A stretch of 64,000 nucleotides of DNA from Pseudobacteriovorax sp. (GTDB lineage: Bacteria; Bdellovibrionota_B; Oligoflexia; Oligoflexales; Oligoflexaceae). Made by a program: the position numbers and the translations under genes. The stretch lies in contig JABSRP010000026.1 in NCBI GenBank assembly GCA_013215145.1, positions 1-64,000 of the forward strand. Direction: 5' to 3'. The notes beneath the pieces were generated by a model. The model was not told the origin of the DNA. It searched no databases and saw nothing but the letters and a program-made list of their open reading frames with translations. Of this stretch, positions 15,306 through 29,050 are shown in pieces. The number at the start of each line of letters is the position of its first letter. The stretch's first letter is position 1.

Positions 15306-16658
15306 TTATGTTCCAGCGATGCTTTGCGCAGCAAATCGGATTTTTGGTGAAAAGAAAGTTTGAGAGGTGTTGCTGTACAAGGTATCCCCAACTGCAACAA
15401 TTTGATCAAGCAACTGATAAAAATTTCCTGAAATAGTTACATCACGCACATACTGATGTGTCTGCCCATTTTTATAGTAGATCCCATCTAGTGCAAGTGA
15501 AAACTGGCCTGAGATTCCATTCGTCCCAGAATGCAGCCCCTTGAGTCCAATCACACGAATGTAATCACCAGACTCAAGTTCTACTTCCGAAGTTTTCCCT
15601 GTATCTATCACTATATGTGTACCAGATACTGAAAGGGCTCCTCTGGCCGATCTAGCCGCGTGCCCAGTGGACTTTGCATTGAAGAAATGGGCTGTAGCAG
15701 AATTATGATAGAAGTTTTTTAGGACACCTTCGTCAATTAGGGTCGTATCTTGCCTCGGATTTCCCTCGTCATCGAAAGAAGAATAATAAAACCCGTTCTC
15801 ATATTTCGGCAGATCTCTAATGGTAAGCATGGGATTAGCTACTTTTTGATGCAATCGATCCCGAAACTGAGACTTGCCTTCCATCGCCGATTTTGCTGAA
15901 AAACTATGAGAAAAACAGCCAAGTAAGGCATCCAGTTGCTCTATATCAAAAACAATTTCATATTTGCCTGTGGGAACAGCCTTACCCTCAAGGAGCGGCA
16001 AAGCATATTTCACTGATTCGTTAACACAATCCTCAACACTTAGATCTTGAAAAGAGCGACCGATATTCGAATGACTAAACATCGATTGCCTTTGATCATC
16101 TTCCGCCAAGACAGACGTGTAACACGAAAAAGCCCTCTCTTTGTGACTACAAAATGTCCCCAAATGATTGAGGTATATCGACCTAGATTCCCCGTCAGCA
16201 TAGCCGTTGTAAGGGCAGTTTTTGATTCTTTTATCTCGATTTAGGACTTCAGATTCTAATCTTAAAGCAAGATCAACTTTTTCATCGGTACTAGCGGTAT
16301 CCTCTTTGTAAAGTTTAGGATGATCTTCAACCAGAGGCTTTTCGTTTTTTACAGATATCGACTGATTTTCATCACGACTGGAATACTCAGAAATCTGAAT
16401 AGCCTGGGAAACCATTTGATCAATAGCCTTAGGATCGAGAGACTCAGTATAAGAAATTGCAACTTTTTGATCTTTTATAACGCGTATTCCAAGAACATTG
16501 GAGCTGGAAACTTTATACTTATCGATTTCTCCCGATTGCGAGCTCAAAGAAAACGAATCCCCCATGGCAGCAATCACATCACAACCTTGGATACTGTGAG
16601 ACATAGCGCTATCAATCGCTTGTTCAGCGCTCTTTTTTAGTATTTCTGTCGAACCCAT
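15306..16658 (-). CDS. pmbA: TldE/PmbA subunit of the TldD-TldE metalloprotease
   Basis: A 450-residue TldE (PmbA) homologue. In known systems TldD and TldE form a heterodimeric protease that degrades unfolded peptides, matures microcin B17 and acts on CcdA; the zinc lies in TldD, and TldE shapes the cavity. Family landmarks include GIRVIKDQKVAISYTE near the N-terminus, the central FSHSFSAKSAMEGKSQFRDR and GLKGLHSGTNGISGQFSLAL near the C-terminus. As expected for TldE, no HExxxH is present. The ATG overlaps the tldD stop (TAATG), so the subunits are made together. Confidence 0.93.
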   Translation of the reverse strand: MGSTEILKKSAEQAIDSAMSHSIQGCDVIAAMGDSFSLSSQSGEIDKYKVSSSNVLGIRVIKDQKVAISYTESLDPKAIDQMVSQAIQISEYSSRDENQSISVKNEKPLVEDHPKLYKEDTASTDEKVDLALRLESEVLNRDKRIKNCPYNGYADGESRSIYLNHLGTFCSHKERAFSCYTSVLAEDDQRQSMFSHSNIGRSFQDLSVEDCVNESVKYALPLLEGKAVPTGKYEIVFDIEQLDALLGCFSHSFSAKSAMEGKSQFRDRLHQKVANPMLTIRDLPKYENGFYYSSFDDEGNPRQDTTLIDEGVLKNFYHNSATAHFFNAKSTGHAARSARGALSVSGTHIVIDTGKTSEVELESGDYIRVIGLKGLHSGTNGISGQFSLALDGIYYKNGQTHQYVRDVTISGNFYQLLDQIVAVGDTLYSNTSQTFFSPKIRFAAQSIAGT

Positions 16659-18040
16659 TAAGCCTCTCCTCCCACCAAAATCTCGTCCACTTTCAAAGCC
16701 GGCTGACCTACTGTTACAGGAATCGACCCACTGACGCTACCGCACATCCCTGGTTCAAGCTTAAAATTATTGCCTACCATGGAAATTTTTTCGAGAGTTG
16801 CCGGCCCTGTTCCAATGAGCGTTGCACCCTTTACCGCATCTCCAATCTTTCCATTTTCAATCAGGTAAGCCTCTTCGATGGCGAAATTAAAGTCACCAGT
16901 GCCAGGCGTCACAGATCCACCCCCTAGAATCTTAGCGTAAATCCCCTTGTCAACCGAGGACAGCAAATCATCGAAGGAATGCGGACCTGGTTCGATAAAG
17001 GTGTTGCGCATCCGAGATGCCGGCGCGAATTTGTAAGACTGCCTTCGTCCCGAGCCTGTGCGTTTGTATCCAGTTTTGATCTCACCCATGCGATCAACCA
17101 TAAAACTTACAAGTTTGCCATCTTTAATAAGTTGAGTTTTCTGAGTTTGCATACCCTCGTCATCGATCTCAAGAGAGCCCCATGTTCCGCCTATGGTACC
17201 ATCATCGACGGCACTGACAGCAGGGTTAGCGATCATCTGCCCCATCTTGTCGTAAAAGACGGAAGCTTTTTTCTCGACACCTGTGGTCTCCAATAGGTGA
17301 CCGCAAGCTTCATGAAAGATGACACCGCCGAAGCCATGTTCGATAATCACCGGCATAGTACCTGCTGGGCAGGGCTTTGCATGCAGGACTGTATCGGCAC
17401 GTTTTGCTAACATATCGGCCAATTCTTCAAGGTTGATGGCATCTACAACCTCCCAGCCTCCCTGAGCCCCAGGGGCTGCATAGGCCCGAGCTTGCTCCTG
17501 TCCATCTTGAGCGATAGCAGAAGTAGAAAACCTTGTATAATGACGCTCTTCGCTACAATTCAGGTTTTCCGAATTGAAAATCTCAATATTTTGCCATCTC
17601 TGGGTTCCCCCAATATCCACCTGTGAGATAAGAGAATTCTTGCGTAACAACTCATCTAGATGAGTCATCACCCTGATTTTTTCATCCAAAGGGAAGTCGG
17701 AATCTAATCCTTTGGCTGCTTTCACGTGATAATGGGTAGCGTCGGTGAAGTCTATAGGACCGGAGTGAATGCGCTCTCTTTGTTCTCGTTCGCAAAGCAG
17801 TTGGGCGATCCGTATCAGCTCATCTGAATCGTCTCGATTTGTGTAACCATACAGAGCCTTCGTTCCGAATACGACTCGGATACCGATACCAAAGTCAGTC
17901 CCGGTTTTAATATCTTTAACTTTACTGTCCACAAAAGAGATAGCGGATCCTACACTTTTCTCGACGAACAGATCCACGAAGTCCGCCCCTTTGGACAGGC
18001 CAGCGTCAATGACGTCCTGTGCCACCTTCTTATCTAACAT
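16658..18040 (-). CDS. tldD: TldD subunit, zinc metalloprotease
   Basis: A 460-residue TldD homologue, the zinc-bearing subunit of the TldD/TldE protease. The metal motif is HEACGH within IFHEACGHLLETT, and the typical DDGTIGGTWGSLEIDDEG and SYKFAPASRMRNTFI segments are present, as are the Gly-rich LGGGSVTPGTGDFNFA stretch and a terminal PALKVDEILVGG. Length matches the family. AAGGGG precedes the ATG. It is first in the operon with pmbA and bcp. A third, more distant TldD-like gene lies at 27410-29050. Confidence 0.95.
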   Translation of the reverse strand: MLDKKVAQDVIDAGLSKGADFVDLFVEKSVGSAISFVDSKVKDIKTGTDFGIGIRVVFGTKALYGYTNRDDSDELIRIAQLLCEREQRERIHSGPIDFTDATHYHVKAAKGLDSDFPLDEKIRVMTHLDELLRKNSLISQVDIGGTQRWQNIEIFNSENLNCSEERHYTRFSTSAIAQDGQEQARAYAAPGAQGGWEVVDAINLEELADMLAKRADTVLHAKPCPAGTMPVIIEHGFGGVIFHEACGHLLETTGVEKKASVFYDKMGQMIANPAVSAVDDGTIGGTWGSLEIDDEGMQTQKTQLIKDGKLVSFMVDRMGEIKTGYKRTGSGRRQSYKFAPASRMRNTFIEPGPHSFDDLLSSVDKGIYAKILGGGSVTPGTGDFNFAIEEAYLIENGKIGDAVKGATLIGTGPATLEKISMVGNNFKLEPGMCGSVSGSIPVTVGQPALKVDEILVGGEA

Positions 18041-20085: not shown

Positions 20086-21021
20086 ATGAAGAAGTATAGT
20101 CTTCTCATCCTGCCTATCGCCATAGTATTGACAGGCTACGGGTACTGGATGGGCATGTCTTCGACGGCGAAAAGTGGAGATCTCCACTTGACTTTTGAAA
20201 CCACTAACAGTCGTCTCAACATTATCGCATTCGGTGACTACGGAACGGGACAAGAAGATCAGTTTAAAGTATTCGCTGCAGCAGAAGAGTTTTGTCAAAA
20301 GTCCGAACTGGATGCGATTCTGCTTTTGGGGGACAACGTCTACATGGATGGGGTTGATAGTATTCACGATCCCCATTGGGAATCTGTCGTAAGGAAACCT
20401 TTTTCGTCTCCTTGTTTGTCTACGGTCCCCCTATTGCCAATTCTAGGAAATCATGACTACAAGGGTAATCCGGACGCCCAAATAGAGTACTCAAAGGTTT
20501 GGAATCAGTGGCATATGCCCCACCGATTCTACTCAGCTACCTTCGGAGACCTATTGGAAGTCATCGCACTTGACACCAGTTATCTGGATTTTTGTTTCGA
20601 CTCAACCCGTTGCAGCGGTGACTTTTTAGTCAAGAGAATGCGAGAAAAGTCTAGCCGATGGCAGATTGCCATGGGTCACCACCCAGCTCACGTATCTTTG
20701 TCAAAGCATAAGCCTGGGATGGTGGGACGCGTTCTCGGTCGCGTGACATGCGGCCTAGACGCCTACCTCGGTGCCCATAACCATCACCTCGAGCATCTTA
20801 AGCCCAAGCAGTGTCAGGAGACGGAATACTTTATCTCAGGTGCCGGAGGAGCAAGCCTTTACCCCATCAAATCACGCCACGAAGACAGTTTATTCGGGCT
20901 TAGTACATTTGGATTCCTTCATATAGAGGCGTCAAAAGAGTCAATAACATATGCTTTTTTCAATCAGGAAAATAAGCTATTGTATCGCTATGATCCATTA
21001 AGAATAGCTTCTAAAGACTAG
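20086..21021 (+). CDS. Exported metallophosphoesterase, purple acid phosphatase-like
   Basis: A 311-residue calcineurin-like metallophosphoesterase with an N-terminal signal or anchor helix, so it acts in the periplasm or on the envelope. The dimetal motifs occur in order: FGDYGTG (GD-x-G, near 50), LLGDNVYMDG (GDN), ILGNHDY (GNHD), MGHHPAH (GH-x-x) and LGAHNHHLEHL (GxHxH). The GDNVY and GNHDY forms match purple/tartrate-resistant acid phosphatases. It should hydrolyse phosphomonoesters, but the substrate is unknown. CAGGG lies 5 bases before the ATG. No phosphate-regulation genes lie nearby. Confidence 0.85.
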   Translation: MKKYSLLILPIAIVLTGYGYWMGMSSTAKSGDLHLTFETTNSRLNIIAFGDYGTGQEDQFKVFAAAEEFCQKSELDAILLLGDNVYMDGVDSIHDPHWESVVRKPFSSPCLSTVPLLPILGNHDYKGNPDAQIEYSKVWNQWHMPHRFYSATFGDLLEVIALDTSYLDFCFDSTRCSGDFLVKRMREKSSRWQIAMGHHPAHVSLSKHKPGMVGRVLGRVTCGLDAYLGAHNHHLEHLKPKQCQETEYFISGAGGASLYPIKSRHEDSLFGLSTFGFLHIEASKESITYAFFNQENKLLYRYDPLRIASKD

Positions 21022-21174
21022 TAAGTAGCGAAAAATTGCTACTCTGAGAGTTGTCAAGACACTTAATGTAGGGTCCAAAACAGCTTGGAACCCTCTGTTT
21101 AAGAAAAACTCATGCCATATTTCCTATGGATCGGTTACGGTAGATAGTCCCTACTTCAAACGCGAGAAAGAAAT

Positions 21175-22917
21175 ATGACTTTGCCCAAGACAAGAGATAC
21201 AGATATCAAGCAACCGAAAGCCTCGTTAGAGATCGGCCAAAGTCTAATGCAAACTCTTCACAGCGCTTACCTATCAAACTCAGCGATCAATCAGGACCGA
21301 GTATCTATTTTTAACAGCTTTCGTTTGAAAACGGAGGAGCTAGATTCCTTCGCACCAAAGATAACTCCCGATGCCATCATTCTATCGGATTTACCTTTCG
21401 ATCCAAACAACTGGTCAGCATTTAGGCCGCAATTTAAGCGGCTTGAAAAACGGTTTCCCAACGCTTCCATTTCCGCGTTTTCCGCGACTGACATCTTAGA
21501 TTTCGTTGTCAAACAAAAATCCAGCTTGACCGCAGTCATCGATCAACTGCTCGATTTGGGCATCAACACCCTATCGGGTCATGACTTCGCCCTTTCCGAT
21601 AACGGTTGGTGGCTAGAGATTCACGAAGCGGCCAACAGTGCAGGCATGCTCTCAGAAGTCGTCATAGACTATCAACCCGAGCACTCTACTGACGATCTAT
21701 CTCATGGCCTGTCGCGTTTGCGCCAATTGCAAGCGGACTACCGGCGCATCACACGGGTCTTTGTCAGGGCAGAATCTCTAGATTTTCGTGAGCAATTAAA
21801 GGTTTGTGCCCGGGTACGGCTAGGATTGCCGAAAGTGGACGATATTGGGGTTCTTATGACAAGGCACACCTACTTAGCCGGTCAGATCAAAATTTGTTTC
21901 GGCATGAATATGATAGCTCAAGAGCAGTCTTTGTCAGATGAACCAATCAGCGAGCATAATCTTAAACTCGCTGTGACAAAATCCAAACGAAGATTAAAGA
22001 GCAGCCAGTCGCATCCTCTCGAACCTCAAATGCCTAGAGACTTAATTCAACTATTTAAGCTCGATCACCAGGAGCAGTTTTCCACCGATGACTTAGTGCA
22101 GATCGTTGAACAATTTCCCCTTTCGGCAGTGGGCATGCTCACAAAAAATCGCGAACCAACCCGGATATCAGAGTCCTTTATTTTATTGGACTGCCGGTTG
22201 GAGAAAGTGGATCCCGATACCATAGAATCCCATCAAAATTTGTATTGGGATTTTTCGAACTTCGGCCCCGACGACCTTGCTACGATAGACTGGGACTATA
22301 TTCGGCAAACAATCAAAGCTATAGACCCAAAATTTAGAATCGTCTTCATCGGACTACAGGGTCTATGGCAAGTCTCACACTTCTTGAAATTAAAGGTTTG
22401 CGATACCTTGGTATTTCTGTCCGAATTGGGATTTAATACGCTGTCGAGTTCTGAGGATGAGACAGAAGAGAACCTAACCACAAGCGAAGTCATCGATATC
22501 CATAGCTGTGCTCATCGACTAGACATGAATACCATAGGAAAAGTCGAACTCTCTGCCGTCTACAACGGCGAATCGAAACCCTTTTGGACTCCGTTTGGTC
22601 AAAGAGTCATTGCGTTTTCTGAACTACAAAAAGAAACGCAAAAATTAACAGGCATCATTGTACAAGAATCGAAATCGGCATTCATCTCTCTGTATGAATA
22701 CCTACAAGCCATAGCAATGAGCAGCATTGCTTTTGAGAAAAATATCGATATCATCACCCCTTTAAGAACACTAAGCCAAGGAGTTTTGCAGCCTAAACTT
22801 GTGACCAAACACAGTATACACGAGCTCATCCCACTCCTTATGCTATTTGGCTCCACTCATTCAGGCTTATTACTGGACGGAGAATTAAATGACCTAATTC
22901 AAAAGCTAGACTTTTGA
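21175..22917 (+). CDS. Tandem MqnC/MqnE-like protein lacking the radical-SAM cysteine cluster
   Basis: A 580-residue protein that I read as two degenerate copies of the radical-SAM fold of the futalosine menaquinone enzymes MqnE/MqnC. Copy 1 (about 20-270) has FRPQFKRLEKRFPNASISAF, then LLDLGINTLSG, WWLEIHEAANSAGM, SRLRQLQ and a final ARVRLGLPKVDDIGV...LAGQIKICFGMNMI, in the order and spacing of MqnC/E. Copy 2 (about 300-575) repeats it: DLVQIVEQFPLSAVGML, DYIRQTIKAIDP, LSELGFNTLSS, SELQKETQKLTG, AMSSIAFEKNIDIITPL and LIPLLMLFGSTHSGLLL. In both, the segment that should hold CX3CX2C has no cysteine motif and is shortened. It is therefore probably a non-catalytic paralogue. No menaquinone gene is adjacent. 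Confidence 0.6.
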   Translation: MTLPKTRDTDIKQPKASLEIGQSLMQTLHSAYLSNSAINQDRVSIFNSFRLKTEELDSFAPKITPDAIILSDLPFDPNNWSAFRPQFKRLEKRFPNASISAFSATDILDFVVKQKSSLTAVIDQLLDLGINTLSGHDFALSDNGWWLEIHEAANSAGMLSEVVIDYQPEHSTDDLSHGLSRLRQLQADYRRITRVFVRAESLDFREQLKVCARVRLGLPKVDDIGVLMTRHTYLAGQIKICFGMNMIAQEQSLSDEPISEHNLKLAVTKSKRRLKSSQSHPLEPQMPRDLIQLFKLDHQEQFSTDDLVQIVEQFPLSAVGMLTKNREPTRISESFILLDCRLEKVDPDTIESHQNLYWDFSNFGPDDLATIDWDYIRQTIKAIDPKFRIVFIGLQGLWQVSHFLKLKVCDTLVFLSELGFNTLSSSEDETEENLTTSEVIDIHSCAHRLDMNTIGKVELSAVYNGESKPFWTPFGQRVIAFSELQKETQKLTGIIVQESKSAFISLYEYLQAIAMSSIAFEKNIDIITPLRTLSQGVLQPKLVTKHSIHELIPLLMLFGSTHSGLLLDGELNDLIQKLDF

Positions 22918-22951: not shown

Positions 22952-23665
22952 TTATAAACTATGTTCTTCATGTCGACTCGAGCCCTGGTAGATTTCACTT
23001 GCCAAAAACTCACGTTCCGCATCAAGTCTGTCTTCAAAAACAGTCTTCCCCCATACCCTCTGCTGGGCATCCCAACGGTAAGCCGCTTCGCGTAGTTTGT
23101 CTTTGACGGCAAACGGCGCTCCTACCGCTAGCAATTTATACTCTTTCATAAAACTTCTGGTAATCAATTCTTTGAGATATGGGCTTACTAGTCTAAAGGT
23201 GGTGGCGCAATCAAATAGAGCCCTGTGTGCAAATGGATTTACAAATCCCATATCCGCGGCTAAATAATTGAGAGCTCTCGTTTTAAATCCGTGACCATGC
23301 CAATCAATGTGCTTTACAGAGCAGCCCCAGTGAATATCTATTCCTGCTAATTCTGGTCTAGCTTCGAGAAACCCCCGGTCAAAATCCGCATTGTGGGCGA
23401 TAATGATATCGGCTCTTCCAAAGAGTTCACGAACTCTACTCCAGTCGATCTGCCTACCGGCAACCATATCGTCATTGATTCCGGTAATCGACTGAATCTC
23501 TTCCGATATCGGTTCTCCCGGATCTTCAAGCTCGCTATACATATTCGTGATCATAGGCTCGACACCGTCTTCGGCAAGAAATTCAAGTATCCCTATTTCG
23601 ATAATTTTGTCATTTTTAGAGTCAATACCAGTGGTTTCCAAATCGACAATCAGACCGATATCCAT
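22952..23665 (-). CDS. DnaQ-like 3'-5' exonuclease (DEDDh)
   Basis: A 237-residue 3'-5' exonuclease of the DnaQ/epsilon superfamily. ExoI carries D-x-E in IVDLETTGID, ExoII carries the Asp in IIAHNADFDRGF, and ExoIII carries H and D in HRALFDCATTF, so the DEDDh set is complete. A C-terminal extension of about 70 residues (from KLLAVGAPFAVKD) contains an RWDAQQRVWGKTV stretch typical of stand-alone family members. It may proofread, repair DNA or process RNA ends; I cannot choose. It is convergent with the Mqn-like gene. A second DEDDh gene lies at 61928-62611. Confidence 0.85.
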   Translation of the reverse strand: MDIGLIVDLETTGIDSKNDKIIEIGILEFLAEDGVEPMITNMYSELEDPGEPISEEIQSITGINDDMVAGRQIDWSRVRELFGRADIIIAHNADFDRGFLEARPELAGIDIHWGCSVKHIDWHGHGFKTRALNYLAADMGFVNPFAHRALFDCATTFRLVSPYLKELITRSFMKEYKLLAVGAPFAVKDKLREAAYRWDAQQRVWGKTVFEDRLDAEREFLASEIYQGSSRHEEHSL

Positions 23666-23769: not shown

Positions 23770-25800
23770 ATGAGCACAGCAAAAAAAGACATTCGCAAAG
23801 AATCCAATAGTAGTCAACTAGCGGGCCTCGAGTTTAATAGTTTCGGTGATCTCCAGAGCCTCATGCCGGATGACAATTTTGGTGAAAACTGGCATGTAAA
23901 ATTTCCCAACCCCGACCAGGTAGTTATTTCCTACGACGGAATTGCTATCATTCTGCTGAACTCTCCTATTTGGTCGAATGACGAGGCTCTAGGAACCTTT
24001 CAATGCAAGATAACCGATCCAAAAACTTGTGTCGCCATTGTCAGCCATTTTGAGGACTACGGATCGAGACGTTTCAAAGAATTGGACGATTCTATTCAAG
24101 AGCTTTGCCTCCCCATCAATGGACTTCAATTGAAGCTAACGCTGCAAAATTTAATCAAAATGCAGCATCTCGTTATGGATTCTGAAAGCAAACAAGAGGT
24201 AGTGGCCGAAGCCTCTCAACACGTGAAGTACGTTCTTCAAATCTCAAGAGAATTAAATGGCATAAGAGATACCAACAAACTTCTGTCTTTAATTTTACGA
24301 AAAGCCCGCGAAGTGACCAACGCCGACGCTGGCTCAATCTACGTCGTCGACCGCAAGGACGCTTCTGACAAAGACGGCGAGATCGTCTTCAAGATCACTC
24401 AAAATGAAACAGTTAGCCAGGCACTTGATGAGTTCCGCATCCCCATTTCTGAAAACTCCATCGTCGGCAAGGCAGTCATTCTCGAAGAAGCTATCAACAT
24501 TGAAGATCTTTACAGGTTAGAAGAGCAGCCCGAAAAAAACAAATATGGGGCGAAGCATGATAAGTCTTGGGACCAAAAAATAGGTTATCAGTGCCGCTCG
24601 ATGTTGACCTTACCCATGTTCGACATTTCCCATGAAGTGATAGGCGTTATTCAGCTTATCAACAAAAAGAAAGCCAACCGCAAAAACCTCAAAGACATCG
24701 AGGATTTTTCTGAAGCAGTTCTAGAGTTTGATCAGGCGTCCGTCGAGTACGCAGAGATCGTTGCTCAGCAAGCAGGTATTGCTCTAGAGAATGCCATGCT
24801 AACAGAAGAACGGGAGAATCTATTCGATGGTTTCGTTCATGCTTCCGTAACAGCTATCGAACAACGTGACCCCACCACAAGTGGTCACTCCAATCGGGTG
24901 GCCCAACTCACAGTAGAGATGGCCCTACTTTTGGACAGAATGGAAACAGGAGCTTACAAGCACGTTAAGTTCAACAAGAATCAGCTCAAAGAAATTGAGT
25001 ATGCCTCCCTGCTCCATGATTTTGGCAAACTAGGAGTCAGGGAACAAGTACTTGTCAAAGCCAAAAAGCTCTACCCTTGGGAGATGGAGCTACTACTGGA
25101 ACGTTTTGGCCATATTCGCTCAAGAATGCAAGTGGAGCACCTGGAAGAGACCATACGCTACTATCAAGACAAAAAGGGCTTTCCTCCAGGTTTTGGACCC
25201 GAATCTTTTTCAAAGAACTTTGCAAAAAAGCTGGAAGAGATCGACGAGTTCCTAGAATTTATCTTAAAGTCTAATGAGCCCACGGTTTTGGAGCAAGGTG
25301 GCTTTGAACGCCTGAAAGATATCGCCAACCTATCGTTTCTCGACTTTAACAATGTCGAGCGACCATTCTTAAAGAACAAGGAACTGGAAGCTCTATCTGT
25401 CAGTCGCGGATCACTGACCAGGGAAGAATTTGCCGAGATCCAGAGTCATGTGAACCACACCTACGAGTTTCTCAGAAAAATTCCCTGGGGACGTGACCTC
25501 TCGAATGTCCCTCAGATCGCCGCAAAACACCATGAGAAGCTCGATGGCTCAGGGTACCCAACATCTGCCCGAGAAACAGAGATTCCCATCCAGACGCGAA
25601 TCATGACGATTTCCGACATTTATGACGCTTTAACGGCTTCTGACCGACCTTACAAAAAAGCGGTTCCCGTAGATAAAGCCCTGGATATATTGAACATGGA
25701 AGTTAAAGCGGGCAAATTGGACAAAGAGCTATTCAATATATTCACCGAGTCACGCGTCTATGAGTTTGCCCTTGCGAGTAAAAAGAAAAAAACCTACTAA
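23770..25800 (+). CDS. GAF-HD-GYP protein, putative c-di-GMP phosphodiesterase
   Basis: A 676-residue cytoplasmic signalling protein. The N-terminal 130 residues are unassigned; a GAF domain follows (about 155-345, with TNADAGSIYVVDR, CRSMLTLPM and GVIQLINKK); then an HD-GYP domain (from about 350), with LLHDFGKLGV for the HD motif and AAKHHEKLDGSGYP for the GYP motif. HD-GYP enzymes linearise cyclic di-GMP. About 110 residues are inserted between the HD motif and the next conserved helix (FAEIQSHVNHTYEFL), larger than usual. GAF domains bind small ligands, so the activity is probably ligand-gated. It sits 29 bp upstream of aat. Confidence 0.88.
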   Translation: MSTAKKDIRKESNSSQLAGLEFNSFGDLQSLMPDDNFGENWHVKFPNPDQVVISYDGIAIILLNSPIWSNDEALGTFQCKITDPKTCVAIVSHFEDYGSRRFKELDDSIQELCLPINGLQLKLTLQNLIKMQHLVMDSESKQEVVAEASQHVKYVLQISRELNGIRDTNKLLSLILRKAREVTNADAGSIYVVDRKDASDKDGEIVFKITQNETVSQALDEFRIPISENSIVGKAVILEEAINIEDLYRLEEQPEKNKYGAKHDKSWDQKIGYQCRSMLTLPMFDISHEVIGVIQLINKKKANRKNLKDIEDFSEAVLEFDQASVEYAEIVAQQAGIALENAMLTEERENLFDGFVHASVTAIEQRDPTTSGHSNRVAQLTVEMALLLDRMETGAYKHVKFNKNQLKEIEYASLLHDFGKLGVREQVLVKAKKLYPWEMELLLERFGHIRSRMQVEHLEETIRYYQDKKGFPPGFGPESFSKNFAKKLEEIDEFLEFILKSNEPTVLEQGGFERLKDIANLSFLDFNNVERPFLKNKELEALSVSRGSLTREEFAEIQSHVNHTYEFLRKIPWGRDLSNVPQIAAKHHEKLDGSGYPTSARETEIPIQTRIMTISDIYDALTASDRPYKKAVPVDKALDILNMEVKAGKLDKELFNIFTESRVYEFALASKKKKTY

Positions 25801-25829
25801 TAGTAGGGTATGTATTTCTTTTGGGGCTT

Positions 25830-26432
25830 ATGAACACGCTCAATTCAGACATTTTAGTGTTAGCCTATAGCCAAGGCTTTTTTCCAATGCCTCATCCTGA
25901 GACGGAAGAAATCTGTTGGTTTAACCCTGATCCAAGAGCCATCATCCCCCTCGATCAATTCCACGCCTCACGTTCCTTGAAGCGGTCGGTTCGAAAACAG
26001 CGCTTTACGTTTTCTATAGACCAAGCTTTTTCTATGGTTATGGCAGGCTGTGCAGACCGGAACGATACATGGATTAACAAGGAAATAAAGTCTGTTTATG
26101 AGGACATGTTTCGCCGCGGATTGGCCCACTCTTTCGAGGTCTGGCAAGATGGTCAGCTCGTCGGAGGTCTCTACGGCGTTAGTCTTGGAAGAGCCTTTTT
26201 TGCTGAGTCAAAATTTCATAAAGCAACGGATGCGTCAAAGGCAGCCCTCTGGGTTCTTGTAGAAACTCTCAATGAGCTTCGCTGTGAGCTACTTGAAGTC
26301 CAGTTTTTAACGCGTCACCTAGCCTCTCTTGGCGCGGTTGAGCTTAGCAACTTTGATTACCAAAAGCGTCTGTCGAAGGCCTTAACTTCCACAGTGACTT
26401 ATCCGAAAGGACAGCTGGAGGCACCGTTGTAA
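25830..26432 (+). CDS. aat: Leucyl/phenylalanyl-tRNA-protein transferase
   Basis: A 200-residue Aat, which transfers Leu or Phe from tRNA to proteins with N-terminal Arg or Lys and so feeds them into the ClpS/ClpAP N-end rule pathway. Landmarks are LAYSQGFFPMP, ICWFNPDPRAIIPL, WINKEIKSVY, GLAHSFEVWQDGQLVGGLYG and the FFAESKFHKATDASKAAL segment, all in family order. The length is at the short end of the family. I take the ATG at 25830 and not the TTG at 25821, because the family N-terminus begins just after it. The ribosome site is weak (GGGG). Confidence 0.93.
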   Translation: MNTLNSDILVLAYSQGFFPMPHPETEEICWFNPDPRAIIPLDQFHASRSLKRSVRKQRFTFSIDQAFSMVMAGCADRNDTWINKEIKSVYEDMFRRGLAHSFEVWQDGQLVGGLYGVSLGRAFFAESKFHKATDASKAALWVLVETLNELRCELLEVQFLTRHLASLGAVELSNFDYQKRLSKALTSTVTYPKGQLEAPL

Positions 26433-27409: not shown

Positions 27410-29050
27410 CTACTTCTTTTTTTGTTTAACCCAGGGCAAAGGCAGAGCATATTGAGTGACACGCGTTGGGCTTTTCAACTGCAGCTCGAGATTACTCAGT
27501 AGCAAGGCTGGTGAAATAGTACTGACTGGAATAGTCCCAGATTCAGCACCGCAGTAACTGTTGTCAATAGCTTGCTCGTTTCCCGTAGCAATAATATTAG
27601 CTAGGGAACTCAAGGGAGTTCCGACAAAATCGACCCCGCGAACCAGACTCTCCTTCCCATTGGCAGTAATCTTAAACGCTAGCGTGACCTGACCCATAAA
27701 AGCTTGGAAATCGTAAGATTCGGTATCGGTTTCCCCACCCTCGACCTCGAGCAGGATCATTCCATAAGGCAAACCCTGAGACCGAATTTCTTCACACAAC
27801 CTCTGCTTAAGTTCATCCCATGAGTGTCCATTTTCCGACTTTATAAAAAGGTTTGCCATACGACTAATAGGCCGTTCAAATCCCTGTGTTCGCGCATGAC
27901 CATTGCTCTCGTGACCCCGTTTTTTCGTTGGACTTCGACTACTCAGGAATCCAATCAGCTTTCCTCGCTCCACCAAATGAGCCTTTACTGGTTTCACGCC
28001 CTCGTCATCATAGGCATAACTACCAACCAGGGATCTCCCTTGATAGCTAACAATGCTCGGATCGTCGTAAATACTTAAGCCTTCATGCATTATTTTTTGG
28101 CCAAGTCTTCCTTGAAAGGTTTTACCTTCGCTGTCCGAAAGCAATCGATTGACCTCCAACCGATGCCCTAGGACTTCATGAATAAACAAGCCCGCAGGTT
28201 GAGGAGCTAACAATACTGGACCGGTGAACGACGTCATCCGATCAGCCTTCTCCAAGCTGTAAAGCAGATTAATTTTATCTTCGATATCAGCTACGAATTT
28301 TTTTAGATTAGGCAACTCTTTAGGGTCGGTAACGTCGTAAGTAAGGGTATAGTCTTGGTTGACTTTTTTGCTGTGATACCAAATATACGCCGAAAGAGAA
28401 TGATGAGGCTGTTGCCACTGCCTAACAGTCCCTTCGGTACTTAAGAATAACTTTGTTTGTAATTCACATGTGTAATCACAATAGGAGGATTTAATTTCCG
28501 GATACTTTTTAAAAATCCGGCTTGCTTCCATCACCAGTTTTTTGAAATGAGACTCGCGAAACTTTGGTTGTCGTAGCGCTTCTTTATTTCGAGCTGGCTC
28601 GCATGGTTGCCAAGAGGGGAGTCCACGATTTTCATCAAGATAGCTAATGTCACGAGATTTTCTGCCGTGATAGCTTGCGACTGCCTCGCGGTACTTTGCA
28701 TCAGTTAGACGCCATAGCGCAAACCTAACACCGTCTTCCGACTCGTCCAAGGGCATCTCAACCAAATCGGTGCTTTCGGCATCTTCTTTATTGTCAGTCA
28801 GTCCACCCTTAATTACATGGTCAAAGGAGTAGTTGCCAACCCGCACATCAGCAAAACAATGTCTATTATGCTCTTTCTTCTCGGCACCTAACGACCCATA
28901 TCGCGCCCAAGTATTGTAGGAACGCGTATCCTTATAAAGATAACTAATATAATAAGGTTTAGGATGCCTCGGAACGACAAGACCACCGAGGGAGCGATTG
29001 ATTTCTTTTTTCATGTAGGTGAATAACTTATTCGCTTTCTCTTGATCCAC
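27410..29050 (-). CDS. TldD/PmbA-superfamily zinc protease, third and divergent copy
   Basis: A 546-residue member of the TldD/PmbA superfamily, clearly separate from the tldD-pmbA pair at 15-18 kb. The zinc motif is HEVLGH in GLFIHEVLGHRLEVNR, and typical TldD elements follow (GRSLVGSYAYDDEGVKP, LVERGKLIGFLSSRSP, DFVGTPLSSLANIIATGN). The N-terminal 250 residues are longer and more charged than in TldD and carry little similarity. No signal peptide is seen. Its ATG overlaps the stop of the CcmI-C-like gene by one base. It has no TldE partner alongside, so it may act alone, with the distant pmbA, or as a homodimer. Confidence 0.82.
   Translation of the reverse strand: MDQEKANKLFTYMKKEINRSLGGLVVPRHPKPYYISYLYKDTRSYNTWARYGSLGAEKKEHNRHCFADVRVGNYSFDHVIKGGLTDNKEDAESTDLVEMPLDESEDGVRFALWRLTDAKYREAVASYHGRKSRDISYLDENRGLPSWQPCEPARNKEALRQPKFRESHFKKLVMEASRIFKKYPEIKSSYCDYTCELQTKLFLSTEGTVRQWQQPHHSLSAYIWYHSKKVNQDYTLTYDVTDPKELPNLKKFVADIEDKINLLYSLEKADRMTSFTGPVLLAPQPAGLFIHEVLGHRLEVNRLLSDSEGKTFQGRLGQKIMHEGLSIYDDPSIVSYQGRSLVGSYAYDDEGVKPVKAHLVERGKLIGFLSSRSPTKKRGHESNGHARTQGFERPISRMANLFIKSENGHSWDELKQRLCEEIRSQGLPYGMILLEVEGGETDTESYDFQAFMGQVTLAFKITANGKESLVRGVDFVGTPLSSLANIIATGNEQAIDNSYCGAESGTIPVSTISPALLLSNLELQLKSPTRVTQYALPLPWVKQKKK

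Follow-up and report, generated by a model that had tools for sequence, protein, structure and literature searches.

The window analyzed here, a stretch of 64,000 nucleotides from a Pseudobacteriovorax sp. (genome G000), encodes a protein of 580 amino acids in which two MqnE/MqnC-type barrels are fused, both of them devoid of the iron-sulfur cluster motif of radical-SAM enzymes. We consider it probable that this is a repurposed pseudoenzyme, whose C-terminal barrel has outlived the pathway it belonged to and is a candidate for ligand binding or non-radical chemistry. The family of the window genome (f1) is represented by seven genomes, one of which (G032), belonging to another genus, carries an ortholog. 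The features discussed below are listed in Table 1.

Table 1. Features of the fusion gene and of its neighbors, with positions in the window.
Feature	Position	Strand	Basis or remark
Calcineurin-like phosphoesterase, upstream neighbor	20086..21021	+	Adjoins the exonuclease where the gene is deleted
Putative Shine-Dalgarno sequence GAGAAAG, 4 nt 5' of the ATG	21164..21170	+	Suggested by reading of the sequence
Doubly cluster-less MqnE-MqnC-type fusion protein, 580 aa	21175..22917	+	ATG start
N-terminal half, residues 1-287, degenerate MqnE	21175..22035	+	Profile E 3.2e-20 to MqnE, 3.3e-16 to MqnC
Shortened segment, residues ~30-70, expected site of the 4Fe-4S loop, no cysteines	21262..21384	+	Alignments
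C-terminal half, residues 288-580, cluster-less MqnC-like barrel	22036..22914	+	Matches the order-wide C-half family with profile E 1.9e-38
Signature SSxxExExxLTxxExxxxHxxxH, residues 425-447	22447..22515	+	Conservation; loop at the PGGGAE site of MqnC
Conserved TxxKxE, residues 453-458, next barrel strand	22531..22548	+	Conservation
Conserved WxxFxxR, residues 471-477	22585..22605	+	Conservation
DnaQ-like exonuclease, conserved downstream neighbor	22952..23665	-	Also adjoins the fusion in G014 and G005
GAF/HD-GYP protein	23770..25800	+	Synteny conserved
Leucyl/phenylalanyl-tRNA protein transferase (Aat)	25821..26432	+	Synteny conserved

Two cluster-less halves in one reading frame

All the motifs quoted in the initial annotation of this gene were found in the open reading frame, the first of them being correctly read as PNASISAF (P-x3-I-x-A-F). 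Neither half of the protein carries a CX3CX2C motif, and the shortening noticed earlier was confirmed, with 287 residues in the N-terminal half compared to 352-388 in most of the complete relatives, and 293 compared to 300-369 in the C-terminal half. In NCBIfam searches, residues 79-193 matched the models for MqnC (TIGR03699, E = 7e-8) and MqnE (TIGR03700, E = 2e-6), with scores around 400 bits under the curated cut-offs (27 bits for TIGR03700, where the cut-off is 434.55). The C-terminal half queried alone gave no match in NCBIfam or Pfam, and hence stays under the MqnC cut-off of 428.1 bits; nothing informative for the protein was obtained from Pfam or from phmmer searches against PDB sequences. 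Direct comparison of the two halves by BLASTP returned a weak alignment (E = 0.029). With profiles that included relatives, the N-terminal half matched MqnE with an E value of 2.6e-28, the C-terminal half matched MqnE with 1.1e-16, and the halves matched each other with 4.6e-15. The homology of the C-terminal half to MqnC was evident with the window-type pair (2e-8) and with the order-wide family of C-terminal halves (5.1e-28), the latter scoring 204 against MqnC, while column-shuffled controls scored 11-17.

An AlphaFold model of the C-terminal half was a barrel (pLDDT 77.7, pTM 0.80), and the full protein was modeled with lower confidence (64.1 and 0.47). MqnE structures (6xig/6xi9) were the first PDB match of both models, with E values of 2.9e-9 and 4.3e-9; the match of the C-terminal half to 6xig (E = 2.9e-9, TMq 0.64) is partly non-independent, because MqnC sequences in the AlphaFold alignment guided the model. 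The initial annotation had named the lack of a radical-SAM barrel match, or of an alignment between the halves, as grounds to discard its reading; the profiles do align and both models match MqnE. Along with the absence of CX3CX2C, the profile homology supports the proposal of two fused cluster-less barrels that are non-catalytic as radical enzymes.

The N-terminal half indeed lacks the cluster cysteines, as had been described, but its degeneration goes far beyond them: six active-site motifs of MqnE comprise 50 near-invariant residues, of which seven remain, and two of the nine cluster-loop residues are retained in the alignment of the shortened segment, which was modeled with low confidence. 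Helix residues are still present, for example those of WxxxHxxAxxxG and LRxLQ. The relationship to MqnE was established by the profile match (Table 1) together with synteny with the active-type fusion of genome G014.

Origin of the fusion and replacement of the futalosine pathway

Matches to the protein, chiefly through its C-terminal half, were found in 21 of the 43 Oligoflexales genomes. These relatives are mainly fusions of approximately 670-740 amino acids, in which an MqnE half with a CxxxCKFC motif precedes the C-terminal half; the N-terminal half of one of them (L007) reaches 515 bits with TIGR03700, above the cut-off. The C-terminal half was cluster-less in all copies examined, and its family was not found outside the Oligoflexales among 58 genomes of the phylum. 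A contig scan with the C-terminal halves of G000 and G032 as queries gave no relative. A wide distribution of the protein was rejected, the three weak matches in the sister order being genuine mqnE/mqnC genes. There, mqnE and mqnC overlap and both clusters are present (L084-L086), an arrangement that is likely to be the precursor of the fusion.

The initial annotation had interpreted the architecture as an internal tandem duplication, and this does not agree with the best fits of the two halves. The dead N-terminal half fits MqnE best; the C-terminal half profiles score higher to canonical MqnC than to MqnE in the three sets compared (204 vs 176 and 64 vs 56 among them), and the motif FGANDxG of the C-half family resembles FGANDFGS of MqnC, unlike FGANDLDG of MqnE. 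The C-terminal half forms a long branch in the tree, which does not decide the matter and where its placement is settled neither with MqnC nor elsewhere, so that the probable origin from MqnC is read from profiles and motifs. That a single MqnC/MqnE paralogue was duplicated in tandem would account for the homology between the halves (E = 4.6e-15), but with these different best fits, and with a natural fusion precursor in the sister order, we regard it as very unlikely. In pathway-bearing Oligoflexales, MqnC is also encoded separately, as a divergent protein whose cluster motif is CVAKCDYC or a similar one in the four cases examined (L197-L200), and the presence of this protein could have left the fused MqnC half free to degenerate. 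These four proteins score well under the NCBIfam cut-off, and annotation pipelines may overlook them.

In family f1 the classical Men pathway has replaced the futalosine pathway for menaquinone. Proteins of the MqnA/MqnD family are present in none of its seven genomes, compared to 36 of the 36 remaining Oligoflexales genomes, and MenD shows the opposite distribution, with matches above the cut-off in 7/7 and 0/36, respectively. Neither MqnC nor an intact MqnE was found in the seven genomes. The initial annotation had suggested checking whether genomes with this gene also have genuine mqnE and mqnC; in the window genome neither was detected, and MqnA and MqnD are also absent. A switch to ubiquinone was rejected, given that the UbiG matches of G000 and G032 lie far under the cut-off while MenD is present. 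The type species of the order produces menaquinone-7 (PMC4179278), and switching between the Men and futalosine pathways is already known in other groups (PMC13386864).

Other arrangements were observed among the remaining genomes. An 822-amino acid open reading frame (L052, in G025) appears to be an MqnD-MqnE fusion, with a PF02621 domain, an intact MqnE (CVLSCKFC) and a remnant of the C-terminal domain, in this order. In three genomes where searches with the C-terminal half gave no fusion (G006, G010 and G009), a divergent MqnE-like radical-SAM protein with a CxYACKYC motif (L053, L055 and L056, 378-390 bits, under the MqnE cut-off) is perhaps a replacement MqnE.

Fate and retention of the gene

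The genes for the exonuclease, the fusion protein, the HD-GYP protein and Aat follow each other in the same order in G000 and G032 as in G014, a genome with an active-type fusion, and these shared neighbors identify the window gene as a positional ortholog of the fused mqnE. The architecture proposed in the initial annotation, with fused cluster-less halves, thus stands, but as the ortholog of an order-wide fusion of approximately 730 amino acids whose MqnE half is intact elsewhere. The doubly dead protein has been kept at the old locus in two genera of f1 (G000 and G032). In three genomes of a third genus, g2 (G028, G029 and G031), the exonuclease and phosphoesterase genes are separated by around 2-11 bp, which indicates that the gene has been cleanly deleted. 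A third dead copy, almost full length (L016, 721 amino acids) and cluster-less in both halves, was found in G005, which belongs to a different family. The G005 genome (L016/L183) is 1.8 Mb in size and 84% complete; it has MqnA/MqnD-family proteins, and an intact MqnE and MqnC were not found in it. Elsewhere in the window, a third TldD/PmbA-type protein (27410-29050, minus strand), in which only the C-terminal PmbA_TldD domain is recognized, is conserved in G032 and lies near a normal TldD/PmbA pair (15306-16658 and 16658-18040, minus strand).

The clean deletion in g2, the gutted MqnE motifs and the fact that this is the fastest-evolving gene in its neighborhood could indicate a dying relic, functionless since the switch to Men and with its loss under way, the open frame in two genera reflecting late or weak decay. 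Protein identity between G000 and G032 is 27% (31% in the C-terminal half, 24% in the N-terminal half), compared to 39-71% for neighboring genes. Pseudogenes are normally broken well before 27% identity is reached, but the frames of 580 (G000) and 606 (G032) codons have no stops even though the four-fold sites have reached saturation, with differences at 35 of 42; in a simple simulation, 0.1 substitutions per site introduced a mean of 6.8 stops and one run in 300 was stop-free. Furthermore, the signature of the C-terminal half is wholly kept while the remaining positions drift. Although it is the main rival to a repurposed protein, we consider a relic unlikely.

Unrelated proteins aligned in the same way gave 20-25% identity, which makes residue-level constraint credible for the C-terminal half, the value for the N-terminal half being within the control range. 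A codon-position test was set aside as evidence of selection on the N-terminal half, since unrelated controls came close. In four closely related pairs of fusions, the dN/dS ratio, measurable in the fused relatives only, was 0.09-0.17 for the C-terminal half compared to 0.03-0.05 for the MqnE half, so that purifying selection acts on the cluster-less domain in these relatives. The window protein combines loss of catalytic residues with conservation of the reading frame and of specific residues, as in pseudoenzymes under selection.

Possible function of the C-terminal barrel

Every residue of SSxxExExxLTxxExxxxHxxxH, TxxKxE and WxxF is present in the three dead copies (G000, G032 and G005). This polar signature, which is not found in MqnE or MqnC, is older than the loss of the futalosine pathway. 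In the modeled barrel its residues lie on or adjoining the catalytic face, at the position of PGGGAE in MqnC, and conserved positions are enriched at that face (17 of 56, odds ratio 2.5, p = 0.007). E/K/D residues close to the C-terminus that are conserved among the fusions are missing from the window protein. The enrichment and the conserved E/E/E/H/H/K/E residues would fit a barrel that had gained a metal- or acid/base-dependent activity and was retained as a non-radical enzyme. This specific version seems unlikely to us, considering that no known enzyme family was matched in Pfam or NCBIfam, that no partner gene suggests a substrate, and that the signature is not present in family f11.

In most pathway-bearing relatives the C-terminal domain is fused to an active-type MqnE and under purifying selection, as would be expected if its only role were to assist MqnE by channeling or holding futalosine intermediates, the f1 copies being leftovers. 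We find this rather improbable, since a cluster-bearing MqnE exists with no such domain in G020 and with truncated forms in families f9 and f10 (L037, L038, L054), and the domain persists in f1, where there is no futalosine pathway. As it also persists without an active MqnE in G005, domain and MqnE activity can each occur without the other. This favors a function that the C-terminal barrel performs independently, which would most likely be the binding of a ligand or non-radical chemistry. A role as substitute for the hydrolase MqnB was unsupported: PF01048 proteins occur in 40 of the 43 genomes, and their presence is not linked to that of the domain.

The initial annotation had considered a scaffold, a ligand sensor or a non-radical enzyme; our evidence suggests that the functional part which has been retained is the C-terminal barrel. 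The gene descends in place from an mqnE bearing a fused cluster-less MqnC-like domain. In family f1, where the Men pathway has taken over, the [4Fe-4S] loop of the MqnE half is gone, as are nearly all of its active-site motifs. In the scenario of repurposing that we favor, the C-terminal domain was probably an accessory of MqnE while the futalosine pathway existed, and a second function would have retained the gene after MqnE became dispensable. At present, the C-terminal barrel may bind a ligand or carry out non-radical chemistry at the old catalytic face, where the SSxxExE/LT/E/H/H-KxE residues would be used, and the gutted MqnE half could act as its structural partner. More tentatively, the barrel might constitute a new cluster-free domain that arose in the Oligoflexales from an mqnE-mqnC fusion, with a pocket of its own for ligands or non-radical catalysis, independent of menaquinone synthesis and surviving the replacement of the pathway.

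The window protein shares with MqnE, the aminofutalosine synthase (TIGR03700; 6xig, 6xi9), the homology of the N-terminal half, syntenic orthology and the barrel fold, and differs from it in the cluster motif and the active-site residues. With MqnC, the cyclic dehypoxanthinyl futalosine synthase (TIGR03699), it shares the profile match of the C-terminal half and, at the level of the C-half family, the FGANDxG-type motif, but it has no cluster, SSxxExExxLT takes the place of PGGGAE, and its conserved residues are novel. The bifunctional FO synthase CofGH also has two radical-SAM barrels of the same superfamily in one chain, both with active clusters, whereas in the Oligoflexales fusions one half is intact, and in the window protein neither is. 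Like pseudoenzymes in general, the latter keeps an enzyme fold after losing the catalytic center, with signs of selection.

In the open-access literature searched, we found neither the fusion nor any comparable radical-SAM pseudoenzyme described, and a doubly dead radical-SAM fusion retained after a pathway swap appears to be undescribed there. The fate of enzymes displaced by the replacement of a pathway seems to have hardly been described. The series at this one locus, from a fusion with intact MqnE and a cluster-less C-terminal half, through the doubly dead protein, to deletion, shows in place how a radical enzyme becomes a pseudoenzyme while the surrounding pathway is replaced, and specific residues can be predicted for a candidate function that would outlive catalysis.
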